Source: a virus
Reading direction: 5' to 3' (one strand)
DNA length: 47,518 nt
IMG/VR virus record: IMGVR_UViG_3300021420_000053
Coordinates: 1 to 47,518 of that record
In this document: piece after piece, positions 39,485-45,529 of the stretch
How the letters are laid out: each line of letters begins with the position of its first letter
Numbering within the stretch: the first letter of the stretch is position 1
Notes under the pieces: generated by a model
What the model saw: only the letters and a program-made list of their open reading frames with translations
Databases searched by the model: none
Told to the model about the DNA's origin: nothing
Position numbers and translations under genes: made by a program

Positions 39485-41668
39485 CTATGGTCCAGGCGCG
39501 GCACCCGGTCCGCCGGTAGGCGGTAATGCTGGTGATCCGGGGCCTGATGGTGCCCCGCCTGGAGTCGGTTGCGGTGGCGGCGCGTCGCGCACGAGATCCG
39601 GCTGCGCGAGCTGCATAGCAGCAGCAGTCGTGATCTGCCCCGTGAGCTTGATGCTGACTTCCGGTTGAATCGGCGGAGGCGGCCCTCCCGCGCCCGGCGT
39701 GCCCGGAGGCGGCTTGCGCGGAATGAAGCGTTCAATGTCACTCTCGTCGCCGAGACGAAGCATGGTTTCTTTTACGAGCTCGATAAGCGCATTCGCCATA
39801 GGCATGTTGCCTTGGGCCATTGCGGCTTCGATTTCCTTCAACGTGTTCTGAATCAACGGAAGAATCGTGCTCCATGCCTGCATATCAGTCGCCTGGCGCG
39901 GCTTGCCGGTGCTGCCTGCTTCGATCGTGACCTCTACCATCGTGAAGAGATCCTCGATATCCATACCAGCCGGCCAAAACGCTTTCGTACCAGCCATCCG
40001 CATAACGTCTCGCGTCGACAGGCATTGTAGCGCTTGCTGCGCAGTGTACTCCGCCAGATCAGTAAGCATCGTTTCGAGGTTGTCTCGGTCACTCGTCGTG
40101 CGAGCTTGCGTTCCAGACTGCTGGATGTTCGCCTCGGTAGCCGTCTTCGGGTTCCCAGGACCATTGATAGCCGCCGAGAGTGCTTCCTGAACTCCTGAAA
40201 TTCTCTCCATGTCATTGAGGATAAGCGTGGGGTCATAGAGCCTCATGTCGATGCCCTGCACGGGCTTCGCTGCGAACAAATTGCCGATCGGCGTCGCCGG
40301 ATCACTCGGCCGGAGCGCCGTGTATTCCTGCGACTTCGACTCCTGTAGTTTCTTCGCCTCGACCTCGTCTAACATCGTCGCGTTGAACAACACACCAGGA
40401 ATGGATCGTTCGCGCGTTAGGCGAAAGTTGCTCCGTGACGATGAGTATTCGTCCTGGAGCTTGTATAGCCTCCACGATAGACTTTGCGCATGCCTCTGAC
40501 CATCCACTTCGTAGAAGGCAAAGTAAAAGTAGGGATAGAACCGGCTCGCTGGATATGGCGGTGGGTAGGGTTCCTTCGCCCATTTGTGTACTCCGTCAAT
40601 GAGTGTGCGAATCTGCTTGTCGCGGCGGTCCCAAATCTCGACTACGCGCAGAAACGCGAGTGATTCCTCGGTGCTGGTTGCCTGCACGAACGCTTGCGCG
40701 CTTTCTGCGGTCAACATTCCCTGCGGCAACACGTTGTCGACATCGCGCGTCGTCATTTCTTTCGGCGCACGTTGGTAATAGGTCTTCGCAGTGCGAATAT
40801 CTTCTGTCGTGAGACGATCGAACTTCGAAAGCGCGTCGTCTTTCGTCATGTACGTCTCGTTCCCGATCCAATCAGCGTTGAGATAATTTTCCACGCGGTT
40901 GATATCGGTCGAAACCTGAATATTCTCGGTCTCGACGTAGTCCACAACGAACATGCGGCTGACGGCAAGTTCCAATTTTTCTTCGAGTGACTTGATTAGC
41001 TCTGCCTTTTCGGCAAGCTCAGACTCGCGTGACTCCGAGTCGCCTTCATCCGGGTCCTCGAGGAGCTTCTGCTGCGCCTGGATGCGCGCGTGCGTCTCCA
41101 TAGCGTCATTCAATGCCGACTCGACTTCCGGCATCGGCCGCTTGTCCGAGACCATCGTCGCTTTGAACCAGCCCTCACCGTTGGAGAGTACAGAACGTAC
41201 TCCGGTTCGGGCCGGGCTTTTGAGATTTGCTTTCTTCCACAGACTGGAGATAACTATTTCCAGTGTGCGGGCGAAAATTTGCATCTGATACGTGTTCGAT
41301 TCGTCAACCTGTGGCGATTTACGTACAGATACATCAGGATTTCTAGCGTAAAGTAAAGCCACCAAGATATCGATAAATGCACCGATAAGATTGGTAGTAA
41401 CGGCCCAAGCGAGATCAGACGTGCCGGCGGCGTAACGCCGGTCAATCGCAATTTGCTTGCGGAAATTCTCATCAAACTTGCGCGCATCGTTGTACTCTTT
41501 CCACTTTTTCTCGACTTGCGCGCGTTCCTTAGCCTCTTCCTCTTTGGAAAGCTCCTGCTTCTGTTCAACGCCGTCATCCATGCCCTCGCCGCCCTGCCGC
41601 GGGTCGGTAAGCTGGCCGCCTCCGCCGCCGGGGGTCGCTGGACCATTGGATGCGCCGGACGTTGACAT
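39485..41668 (-). CDS. Portal protein
   Basis: 727 residues. The size, Gly/Pro-rich ends and helical core match the large portals of P22-like podoviruses. Near residue 500 the segment SAAINGPGNPKTATEANIQQ followed by DNLETMLTDLAEYTAQQALQ is the long stem helix region seen in these portals. A proline-rich tail (residues 680-727) follows. It forms the dodecameric ring for DNA entry and binds terminase and adaptor. Confidence 0.85.
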   Translation of the reverse strand: MSTSGASNGPATPGGGGGQLTDPRQGGEGMDDGVEQKQELSKEEEAKERAQVEKKWKEYNDARKFDENFRKQIAIDRRYAAGTSDLAWAVTTNLIGAFIDILVALLYARNPDVSVRKSPQVDESNTYQMQIFARTLEIVISSLWKKANLKSPARTGVRSVLSNGEGWFKATMVSDKRPMPEVESALNDAMETHARIQAQQKLLEDPDEGDSESRESELAEKAELIKSLEEKLELAVSRMFVVDYVETENIQVSTDINRVENYLNADWIGNETYMTKDDALSKFDRLTTEDIRTAKTYYQRAPKEMTTRDVDNVLPQGMLTAESAQAFVQATSTEESLAFLRVVEIWDRRDKQIRTLIDGVHKWAKEPYPPPYPASRFYPYFYFAFYEVDGQRHAQSLSWRLYKLQDEYSSSRSNFRLTRERSIPGVLFNATMLDEVEAKKLQESKSQEYTALRPSDPATPIGNLFAAKPVQGIDMRLYDPTLILNDMERISGVQEALSAAINGPGNPKTATEANIQQSGTQARTTSDRDNLETMLTDLAEYTAQQALQCLSTRDVMRMAGTKAFWPAGMDIEDLFTMVEVTIEAGSTGKPRQATDMQAWSTILPLIQNTLKEIEAAMAQGNMPMANALIELVKETMLRLGDESDIERFIPRKPPPGTPGAGGPPPPIQPEVSIKLTGQITTAAAMQLAQPDLVRDAPPPQPTPGGAPSGPGSPALPPTGGPGAAPGP

Positions 41669-42840: not shown

Positions 42841-43025
42841 TAAAACACCCTATGCAGAATGGCCGAAATCACACCGAAGTGACTGACGGCGAACCCAACA
42901 ACAGCGGCGACGGCCTTGGTGTAGTGCGCTTTGAAGAACGCAACAACCTTTGACTCGTCGGCCTTGACCACAGCAACATCGGCCTTAACGGCGGATGCGA
43001 TGGATGAAATAGTTGCGTCAGCCAT
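42840..43025 (-). CDS. Small amphipathic/membrane-like protein
   Basis: 61 residues. The first half is a charged helix with repeats of the type KADVAVVKADESKVVAFFKA; the second half is hydrophobic (AVAAVVGFAVSHFGVISAIL), long enough for one membrane span. No holin-like charge pattern at the C-terminus. Overlaps the terminase nuclease gene by one base. Unknown role. Confidence 0.7.
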   Translation of the reverse strand: MADATISSIASAVKADVAVVKADESKVVAFFKAHYTKAVAAVVGFAVSHFGVISAILHRVF

Positions 43026-43687
43026 TAGAAATACCTCACTTTCGGTTTCTGATTGCGGTCATTGTACTCGATCCACTTTTCGGTGAACGGCACAAGTAAG
43101 GGTTTAGTATCGCTCAAAGGAACTTGGGGGTCAAACATCTTGTCAACCCCGCGACCGATAAGACCGCATACGTCCGCCTTGTCGTCCCATCTTCCGGCTG
43201 GAAATTTAACGAGTTGCGTGATGACGCCACCCTCGCCCTTAGAGCCGTTTCCGTCCGACCACGCGCGATTCACCGGCAAGTGGATCGCACCCGCGCAGGC
43301 CATGGCGTGAAACGCTTGCAGCTTATATGCTTTGTCCGTCAGCGACGGGAGTGATTCGATAACGGTGTACGTTTGGCGGTCGCGCATCGCTTTGCGTTTC
43401 TGTGCGCCGATCGCTTTGTCGATCAATCCGCCTTCGTCGAACCAGTAGATAGGCTTCCATCGTGCGACGAGGTTAAGCCATGCCGTGATCCCCACGTCGG
43501 TCTCACATTGCTTGCTCCACCAGTCAATGGCCCACAACTCGCCTCGCCGATCAATCCCCCACACGCCGTGCTCAGTGAAGTCAGGCTCTTTCTTACCCGC
43601 TTTAGGTTCCATTGTTGCGAAGTCAGACGCGCCATAAATGCGAAGAGTCTTCGGAAGCGCATCGAGGCCGTCATACATTTGAATCAC
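43025..43687 (-). CDS. Terminase large subunit, nuclease (RuvC-like) half
   Basis: 220 residues from GTG 43687, overlapping the stop of the intervening gene. It carries the three acidic positions of the headful nuclease: D22 in IYGASDFATM, D84/E85 in YWFDEGGLID and D168-D169/D172 in WDDKADVCGL, plus WGIDRRGELWAIDWW, the usual second strand pair. It begins exactly where the ATPase half stops (both contain an MY after F/I-x). It would cut packaged DNA after the head is filled, in complex with the product of 43878-44918. Confidence 0.88.
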   Translation of the reverse strand: MIQMYDGLDALPKTLRIYGASDFATMEPKAGKKEPDFTEHGVWGIDRRGELWAIDWWSKQCETDVGITAWLNLVARWKPIYWFDEGGLIDKAIGAQKRKAMRDRQTYTVIESLPSLTDKAYKLQAFHAMACAGAIHLPVNRAWSDGNGSKGEGGVITQLVKFPAGRWDDKADVCGLIGRGVDKMFDPQVPLSDTKPLLVPFTEKWIEYNDRNQKPKVRYF

Positions 43688-43881
43688 GGATTACACTGCT
43701 TCAGCTCGCCGCTAGGGGCGACGTAGATCGCCGTAGGGCAGCCGTGGTCGTTACGCTTGAGATTTTCTTGATCCCACGACTGCAGCTTGATCTCACCCTC
43801 GTGCGGGTTGTAACGGTGCATGTGGATGCCGCCTTCCGTGAGGAGCACTGCGAGTGTTATAGCAAACAGAATTTTCTTCAT
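43684..43881 (-). CDS. Secreted-type small protein between the terminase halves
   Basis: 65 residues. MKKILFAITLAVLLTEGGIH is a signal-peptide-like or signal-anchor start. The rest is polar, with two Cys (HGCPTAIYVAP and LKQCNP). It is coupled to both terminase genes: its ATG overlaps the ATPase stop (ATGA) and its TGA overlaps the nuclease GTG (GTGA). It is not similar to terminase. An envelope function such as exclusion is only a guess; it is an insertion of a cargo gene at a domain boundary. Confidence 0.75.
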   Translation of the reverse strand: MKKILFAITLAVLLTEGGIHMHRYNPHEGEIKLQSWDQENLKRNDHGCPTAIYVAPSGELKQCNP

Positions 43882-44918
43882 GTGTCTACTCGTGCGAGAT
43901 CCGGATTGTACATCCGAAACATCTCGCGGTTAAAGTGAACGCCAGTGAAGGGCGCGGGACGCTGCTGATAAAGCGCAGCCCACGTTCGCGCAGCGCGCGG
44001 ATTATCGCGCCACGTACTCCAGTGTTCCTTAGGAAACCATTCGGGCCAAAGAAACTCACCGGGTTTCCGTCCAAGAACGTCGTCGTCCCTTTCGGCTTCG
44101 GCGGGTATACAAAGAACTTCCCATTCCTGTCCATCACGACAACGTATGAGTCCGCTTTCACCGGAATAGTCTGCGGGGAGAATGGAACCACTTAAGTCCT
44201 CCTCATGCCAGCGCGTTTGTATGATCAGCACCGACATGCGCGGCTTGGCGCGCGTCATGGCAGTGTCAAGATACTCGTTGTACGTCTTCTCGCGGATCGC
44301 AGGCGAGTCGGCCTGCTCGCGGTTTGCTACAGGATCGTCTAGCACCAAAAGATCACAACGATTTCCAGTGATGCCCGCGAGCAGGCCGGCTGCCATCATG
44401 CTCGATCCGTTCGTCATTTGCCAGTCGTCGATCGCGCGCTGGTCATCCTGGAGGACCGGCTTGGTTTCCCAAATACCTGTGTAGCTCGGATCGCGTACAA
44501 TCGATCGCACTTTCCGCGATTGTTTTGTAGCTATAGTAGTAGCATACGAACCTAAGATCACCTGGAAACCAGGCCACTTGCCCATTGCCCAAGCCGGCCC
44601 CAATACAGCCCCGTAGGTAGATTTCCCCGAACCGGGGGGTTCGAATATCATCGTTCGTCCGCGTGGTTTCTCTATGCATCTCTGTATCGCCTGCATGGTT
44701 AGGATGTGGTGAATTGCAACGCGCGACTCGACGGGTGTGTACGAAACCTTTACGTGCTCGATGCGGTCTTTAAGCTTTCCCTTCTCGTCCTCTTCGTCGA
44801 TGATCTCGACTTGCGGCACGCCCGGCACATCGATCGACTGGCTGAAGTCGACCAAGCTGGCGCGGCTGCGCTCGCGGCGTTGCAACTCGTTTGAGTATCG
44901 GTGGGGGGCTAGCTCCAT
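43878..44918 (-). CDS. Terminase large subunit, ATPase half
   Basis: 346 residues. Walker A PPGSGKST at 94-101, Walker B LLVLDDPV with the Asp pair at 194-195, and coupling motif IIQTRWHEEDL with QTRWH at 234-238. It ends after HFNREMFRMYN, the linker that normally joins the nuclease domain, with only nine further residues (the stop lies at the ATGA overlap). The packaging motor thus seems to be encoded by two genes. Its own start has TGAGGT just upstream, 3 bases after the small subunit stop. Confidence 0.9.
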   Translation of the reverse strand: MELAPHRYSNELQRRERSRASLVDFSQSIDVPGVPQVEIIDEEDEKGKLKDRIEHVKVSYTPVESRVAIHHILTMQAIQRCIEKPRGRTMIFEPPGSGKSTYGAVLGPAWAMGKWPGFQVILGSYATTIATKQSRKVRSIVRDPSYTGIWETKPVLQDDQRAIDDWQMTNGSSMMAAGLLAGITGNRCDLLVLDDPVANREQADSPAIREKTYNEYLDTAMTRAKPRMSVLIIQTRWHEEDLSGSILPADYSGESGLIRCRDGQEWEVLCIPAEAERDDDVLGRKPGEFLWPEWFPKEHWSTWRDNPRAARTWAALYQQRPAPFTGVHFNREMFRMYNPDLARVDT

Positions 44919-44921
44919 ACC

Positions 44922-45275
44922 TCAGTCTAGCAGTGGGTCGTGGGCTGGCACAAGTCGGCGCGGCGGCTCGTAGGCGGCGATCTTCTCGCGCAGCTCATCA
45001 TCGGTCATCATCGCGAGTTGCCGCTCCTCGTCGCGCGCGGTCGGCGCCTGGATGCCGCCATGGTTCTTCAACTTGTCCGCTGCGTTCACCCGATCGCCGG
45101 CTTTCGCGAACGTATCCTCCATGATCTCCTGAAGGATCTTCAGTGCTTCCTCCTGATACGCGCGTGAGATGTTCGCGGACTTCAGCAGCTTGTCTGCCGC
45201 CGACACGCGATCGCGGTCCTCGGCGGAGTGCAACAGTTGCACTAACGTCGAGATCGCATCGTCGCGGAGACTCAT
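44922..45275 (-). CDS. Terminase small subunit candidate
   Basis: 117 residues, mostly helical: an N-terminal pair of helices (LRDDAISTLVQLLHSAEDRD), a second repeat-like helical pair (YQEEALKILQEIMEDTFAKA, then RVNAADKLKN) and a basic/proline end. Both halves contain R-V-[SN]-A-A-D-K-L, an internal duplication. Position directly before the large subunit gives the assignment; sequence similarity alone is weak. Coupled to the upstream gene by ATGA. Confidence 0.7.
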   Translation of the reverse strand: MSLRDDAISTLVQLLHSAEDRDRVSAADKLLKSANISRAYQEEALKILQEIMEDTFAKAGDRVNAADKLKNHGGIQAPTARDEERQLAMMTDDELREKIAAYEPPRRLVPAHDPLLD

Positions 45276-45529
45276 GGCGGATAATGCCCGTGATCGTGGT
45301 GAATATGCTTCGGGTCATCGTCGATCCACACGTCCGCGTCGTAGTGTTGGTCCTTTGCCTTGAATGCGCAATAGATCACCTCGATGCCTGTGACCGGCAC
45401 TGGCGTAGCCTCATTGCGGCTAGTGACGATCGTAACCTCGTGGCCGCGCATGTACGCCATGCCGACAAAGCAAATCCAAAGATCCGGGTCACGAGTAAAT
45501 GTGTTGTCGTAGTCGAGCGCGATTTTCAT
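45272..45529 (-). CDS. HAD-like phosphatase fragment or small HAD protein
   Basis: 85 residues. MKIALDYDNTFTRDPDLWIC contains the HAD motif I (DYDNT), and VTIVTSRNEATPV carries the motif II Thr/Ser. DVWIDDDPKHI has the motif IV Asp pair. A compact, cap-less HAD protein of this size resembles the 5'(3')-deoxyribonucleotidase-like or polynucleotide-kinase-phosphatase fold; motif III Lys is likely in FKAKDQHYDA. Acts on a phosphorylated nucleotide or DNA end. Confidence 0.75.
   Translation of the reverse strand: MKIALDYDNTFTRDPDLWICFVGMAYMRGHEVTIVTSRNEATPVPVTGIEVIYCAFKAKDQHYDADVWIDDDPKHIHHDHGHYPP

Follow-up and report, generated by a model that had tools for sequence, protein, structure and literature searches.

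ATPase and nuclease halves of a phage large terminase subunit lie in separate genes in an IMG/VR virus contig and its relatives

The two domains of the terminase large subunit (TerL), ATPase and nuclease, are encoded by separate genes on the minus strand of the IMG/VR record IMGVR_UViG_3300021420_000053, which was analysed in its entire length of 47,518 bases (hereafter the window). An earlier note on this DNA had described 43025-44918 as a TerL encoded by two genes. Its coordinates, its frames and its two separate halves hold, but a third gene of 65 amino acids, which the note did not name, lies between the halves. The features of the locus are as follows.

43878..44918, minus strand: TerL ATPase half, 346 amino acids plus a TGA stop; matches Pfam Terminase_6N, positions 290-538 of the 760 of phrog_38, and the T4 gp17 fold
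43684..43881, minus strand: 65-amino-acid cargo gene in the split, with a lipoprotein- or signal-peptide-like N-terminus and a relative at the same place in contig L002
43025..43687, minus strand: TerL nuclease half, 220 amino acids, GTG start; matches positions 533-694 of phrog_38 and the T4 gp17 fold
43878..43881, minus strand: ATGA overlap of 4 nucleotides (nt), cargo start over ATPase stop
43684..43687, minus strand: GTGA overlap of 4 nt, nuclease start over cargo stop
43881..43937, minus strand: ATPase-side hinge piece, HFNREMFRMYNPDLARVDT
43637..43687, minus strand: nuclease-side hinge piece, VIQMYDGLDALPKTLRI

The overlapping start and stop codons to which the earlier note had pointed are real, but each of them joins one half to the 65-amino-acid gene, so the order is that of three genes, ATPase-cargo-nuclease, and the two halves are not in direct contact in the window. 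Since the start and stop codons of these neighbouring genes overlap, their translation is probably coupled. The 65-amino-acid gene matches LPAM_1 with an expectation value (E) of 0.011, which falls short of the cut-off of that family, and its ratio of nonsynonymous to synonymous substitution rates (dN/dS) against the L002 counterpart is 0.09.

Both TerL domains are present and neither is missing. The ATPase open reading frame (ORF) contains EPPGSGKST, VLDDP and QTRWHEED, so that the Walker A, Walker B and QTRWH motifs of the earlier note could be located, and it matches Terminase_6N (E 3.9e-10) and the TerL family phrog_38 (E 3.1e-59). The nuclease half matches phrog_38 weakly (E 7.4e-8) and matched no Pfam family, while its acids D22, E85, D168 and D169 are invariant in all 31 aligned sequences; the catalytic motifs of both halves are invariant in the alignments of relatives. 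AlphaFold models of the two halves have mean predicted local distance difference test scores of 69.7 (ATPase, with low confidence over the final ~30 residues) and 77.2 (nuclease). The ATPase model matches residues 101-352 of T4 gp17 (3cpe) with Z 15.4, which is only modestly higher than the Z of 12-13 reached by DEAD-box helicases; judged by its sequence families, however, there is no doubt that it is a TerL ATPase. The nuclease model matches residues 369-561 of the same structure with Z 14.7, the best terminase nucleases reaching 14.7-15.5, and its predicted fold is clearly that of a terminase nuclease. Searching solved structures by sequence, with each half as query, gave nothing useful. The view that both halves are intact is thus borne out. 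The top fold match for both halves is chain 8dgc_E, a TerL in complex with the defence protein Avs3, and one idea is that a two-chain TerL might evade Avs3-like sensors.

The same break recurs among relatives. We kept 80 of 164 relatives found by the ATPase search and 80 of 114 found by the nuclease search. In the ATPase-found set both halves were matched in 68 of 80, with 49 split and 19 in one frame; the 12 without a nuclease match comprise L021 and L044, which are cut at the contig end, and 10 distant relatives whose ATPase frame continues well past the break. Pooling the two sets and removing identical junctions left 93 relatives, 72 split and 21 unbroken, and hence 73 split loci including the window. 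The earlier note had asked whether relatives carry the split or an unbroken gene, and had called the arrangement stable; both forms were found, and the split recurs at 72 other distinct junctions of IMG/VR contigs, in agreement with such stability. The halves remain neighbouring genes in all 73 split loci. As no split locus encodes a single chain while the Walker A/B ATPase domain and the RuvC/RNase H nuclease domain are both found, it is descent and likely function, rather than architecture, that make these proteins TerL.

The ATPase identity to the window is at least 60% in all split relatives and 34-54% in the unbroken ones, except for L139 and L140, at 62-68%. L146 and L147, two more unbroken TerLs resembling L139, came from an additional scan, as did unbroken relatives at greater distance. 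On a tree with 59 split and 19 unbroken rows (78 in all), two changes account for the split state, namely one break plus L139 being either re-fused beside L137 or misplaced. The best trees put the L139 group inside the split clade, but approximately unbiased tests do not reject trees in which the split rows are held together (p = 0.247, and 0.454 with 86 rows). The simplest history is a single break at or near the root of the clade, and L139, L146 and L147 possibly represent a natural re-fusion next to L137. A DNA search of annotated phages gave no match, and a protein search gave 1664 records, all of them below 60% identity, so that collection appears to hold no isolate of the split clade. 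In a genome collection the profile search gave no matches and the single-protein search gave six distant relatives. Three Aureimonas contigs (L157-L159) carry TerL relatives at 49-53% identity.

The break falls at the interdomain hinge. We built a profile of 504 positions from 27 unbroken TerLs, on which the ATPase halves end at 306-310 and the nuclease halves begin at 301-308 in all 73 split loci; counting unaligned ends, the halves overlap by 10-26 profile positions, mostly 12-14. The fold matches to T4 gp17 stop at residue 352 and resume at 369, which likewise places the break at the hinge, as the earlier note had proposed in naming a known linker. Each half keeps its own hinge piece, e.g. 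FKMYDPDLARVDA ending one and MIQTYDGLDALPKSLRIYGASD opening the other, which is consistent with a short duplication having occurred there. The F/I-x-M-Y stretch that the earlier note saw on both sides is present, but it is weak evidence alone: when the tail of one half is compared with the beginning of the other, no more than 46 of the 73 loci score above shuffles (mean 14.9 against 12.9), and self-similarity at the junction was too weak for us to accept it as proof that a duplication took place.

Both halves are under purifying selection. The dN/dS of the ATPase is 0.01-0.20 in 14 of 15 pairs, the remaining pair having no amino-acid change. Among the 15 nuclease pairs nine could be scored (four were saturated, one was identical and one was skipped for the frame break in L023), and seven of the nine have dN/dS of 0.04-0.13. 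Ratios well under 1 for most pairs in both halves agree with the suggestion that the arrangement is selected. Across the 59 split rows the ATPase and nuclease distances are correlated (r 0.515), and permutations reach at most 0.165. Nine split records, the window among them, are 45.7-47.5 kb long, and in these phrog_38 detects the split pair and no second TerL, although the records are possibly incomplete; in one of the nine the match is single and runs across two in-frame stops. Two full, selected halves with no other intact copy in these possibly incomplete records are what a gene in pieces should present.

The split is an insertion hot spot with changing cargo. A gap of 77-1040 nt separates the halves in 26 of the 73 loci, and its cargo includes HNH/Endonuclease_7 genes (four of the 26: L022 and L023 by Pfam, L115 and L123 by similarity), a TylF-type methyltransferase (L004, with a similar cargo in L006), a tRNA-His gene (L065:531-603), the 65-amino-acid family (window and L002) and several unknown families. 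A 4-nt overlap with the flanking half is found at the ORF start in 20 of the 26 cargo loci, at the ORF end in 20, and at both in 15. L023 and L054 (L023:3684-4323 and L054:2964-3602) are near-identical phages, with 98.8-99.2% DNA identity in the two flanks of the split, but the former has an HNH (Endonuclease_7) gene there and the latter a 39-nt spacer. Of these two it is the HNH-carrying L023 that has a broken nuclease frame, by error or by real damage. L133 and L144 differ by a 66-amino-acid cargo ORF, and their synonymous divergence (dS) is 0.56 in the ATPase and 0.03 in the nuclease, which suggests that one half was exchanged by recombination.

Could the separate frames still yield a single chain, or be an artefact? 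The earlier note had named a reading error and RNA splicing as what would overturn its claim, and our computations support neither. A sequencing error or a decaying gene, which the broken frame of L023 might recall by showing that single members may be broken, is already refuted by the relatives: the identical break stands at 72 other junctions and dN/dS is far under 1 in most pairs. RNA or protein splicing has a precedent of sorts in L046, which has a real intein, though inside its ATPase. However, the ATPase-nuclease junction is exactly a 4-nt overlap, with no endonuclease gene, in 33 of 73 loci, which leaves no space for an intron. Rfam at the gathering threshold matched neither the window nor any of 20 loci with a gap, and a search of 43550-44000 with E up to 1 also gave nothing, so that no group I or II intron was found at the junction, and the gap inserts of relatives are ordinary unrelated genes; restoration of one chain by splicing is therefore very improbable. 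We give an equally small chance to a programmed frameshift or stop readthrough that yields some joined chain. It might draw on the 47 of 73 junctions that share one relative frame and on L137, whose halves are in frame and 3 nt apart. But every one of the three relative frames is present (47, 19 and 7 of 73), the slippery heptamer X_XXY_YYZ occurs in none of the 73 within the last 21 codons, and the halves, fewer than 60 nt apart in 47 loci, are at least 77 nt apart in the other 26. The 4-nt overlaps, the varied frames and the lack of intron or heptamer leave no room for a general chain-restoring mechanism.

We consider it probable, at roughly three in four, that this is a TerL in pieces acting as a non-covalent two-chain motor. 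The break would have arisen once at the interdomain hinge, perhaps via a homing endonuclease or a short out-of-frame duplication, with each half retaining its own hinge piece, and the gap would afterwards have tolerated small genes landing in it, including HNH endonucleases of the kind possibly behind the break. Neighbouring genes would yield ATPase and nuclease as two chains, coupled translation would keep them close and in ratio, and the chains would meet on the portal by surface contact to pump and cut DNA. The translational coupling, the assembly of the two chains and their function as a motor are the parts that we infer. If there is no covalent hinge, power transfer between the domains must pass via surface contact.

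Several observations weigh against this two-chain motor. The L139 group, with an ATPase identity of 62-68%, has an unbroken gene and may nest inside the split clade. In two nuclease pairs dN/dS is about 0.7 (L004-L006, 0.69; L133-L144, 0.77; dS at most 0.1 in each), and the L023 nuclease frame is broken. Shine-Dalgarno-like sites precede the nuclease start in 14 of 73 loci, which is no enrichment (shuffles 24%). The separated T4 domains are reported to lose translocation, and the T4 hinge is reported to be essential (PMC9958956). One could also suppose that there is no single motor, the ATPase ring pumping alone and the nuclease being a free subunit that is recruited only for cutting. In phi29-type motors an ATPase ring does pump DNA alone, and L133 and L144 indicate that the halves can change separately. 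That the genes are neighbours in every split locus, that the distances of the halves correlate and that both hinge pieces are retained make this arrangement unlikely. With the two-chain motor as our preferred reading, we speculate, at somewhat less than even odds, that a whole phage radiation packs without a covalent hinge, with engine and cutter separately exchangeable, cutting uncouplable from pumping and the seam serving as a gene port.

Around the TerL genes two further features were annotated.

44922..45275, minus strand: 117-amino-acid ORF directly upstream of the ATPase half; phrog_15261 (unknown function), E 4e-4
39485..41668, minus strand: portal protein gene, downstream of TerL in the same direction; phrog_12082, E 1.8e-9

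The 117-amino-acid ORF is possibly the small terminase, judged by position only. Several small ORFs lie between the nuclease half and the portal gene on the minus strand. A small ORF upstream of TerL (45272-45529, beginning MKIALDYDNT) matches phrog_4919, of unknown function, and by eye it resembles the cargo inside the split of L042 (L042:828-1073). The intein of L046 (L046:1977-3812; Intein_splicing, E 1e-13) sits inside the QTRWH motif of the ATPase half of a split TerL, and, as seen by eye, a different frame of the same stretch carries an overlapping HNH-like ORF.

A natural two-chain TerL offers a direct way to ask about the need for the hinge, the role of the domain interface and the cutting switch. 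In T4-type packaging models the nuclease/translocation domain is driven by the ATPase via a flexible hinge, and given the loss of translocation that a review reports for separated T4 domains (PMC9958956), the split clade is a natural test of the hinge. A nuclease domain associated with TerL has been termed a universal feature across Caudovirales (PMC7824862). Annotation that uses a full-length TerL as marker may misread split-TerL phages. We found no description of a two-gene TerL without splicing in the excerpts of open-licence papers that were searched. Annotation lists of actinobacteriophages have separate gene names for the TerL ATPase and nuclease, so isolated cases may be recorded.

Known systems resemble this one in part. 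In T4, gp17 has the same two domains and folds, but as one chain (PMC9958956; 3cpe). The NrdA of Aeromonas phage Aeh1, the T4 topoisomerase and the gp43 of phage 25 are likewise essential phage enzymes whose coding sequence is in two genes, a state that homing endonucleases caused or accompany; the split NrdA is reported to be functional, and the gp43 halves are reported to co-purify and to be active (PMC2988022). Those are replication or nucleotide enzymes of named T4-like phages, whereas here a packaging motor is split at 73 junctions, mostly without a remaining endonuclease and with many kinds of cargo. The split DNA polymerase of MEP401-like OM43 phages (PMC10580990) is a different enzyme, in two phages. 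In ICP1 (PMC10448857) and the Jug phages (PMC12363816) terL also lies in separate frames with homing endonucleases nearby, but their introns are spliced from the message, while here we found nothing spliceable, and 4-nt overlaps between the halves are frequent. As far as the excerpted sources go, T4-like enzymes with genes in pieces and intron-interrupted terL are already known, and a stable two-gene TerL without splicing is apparently new.
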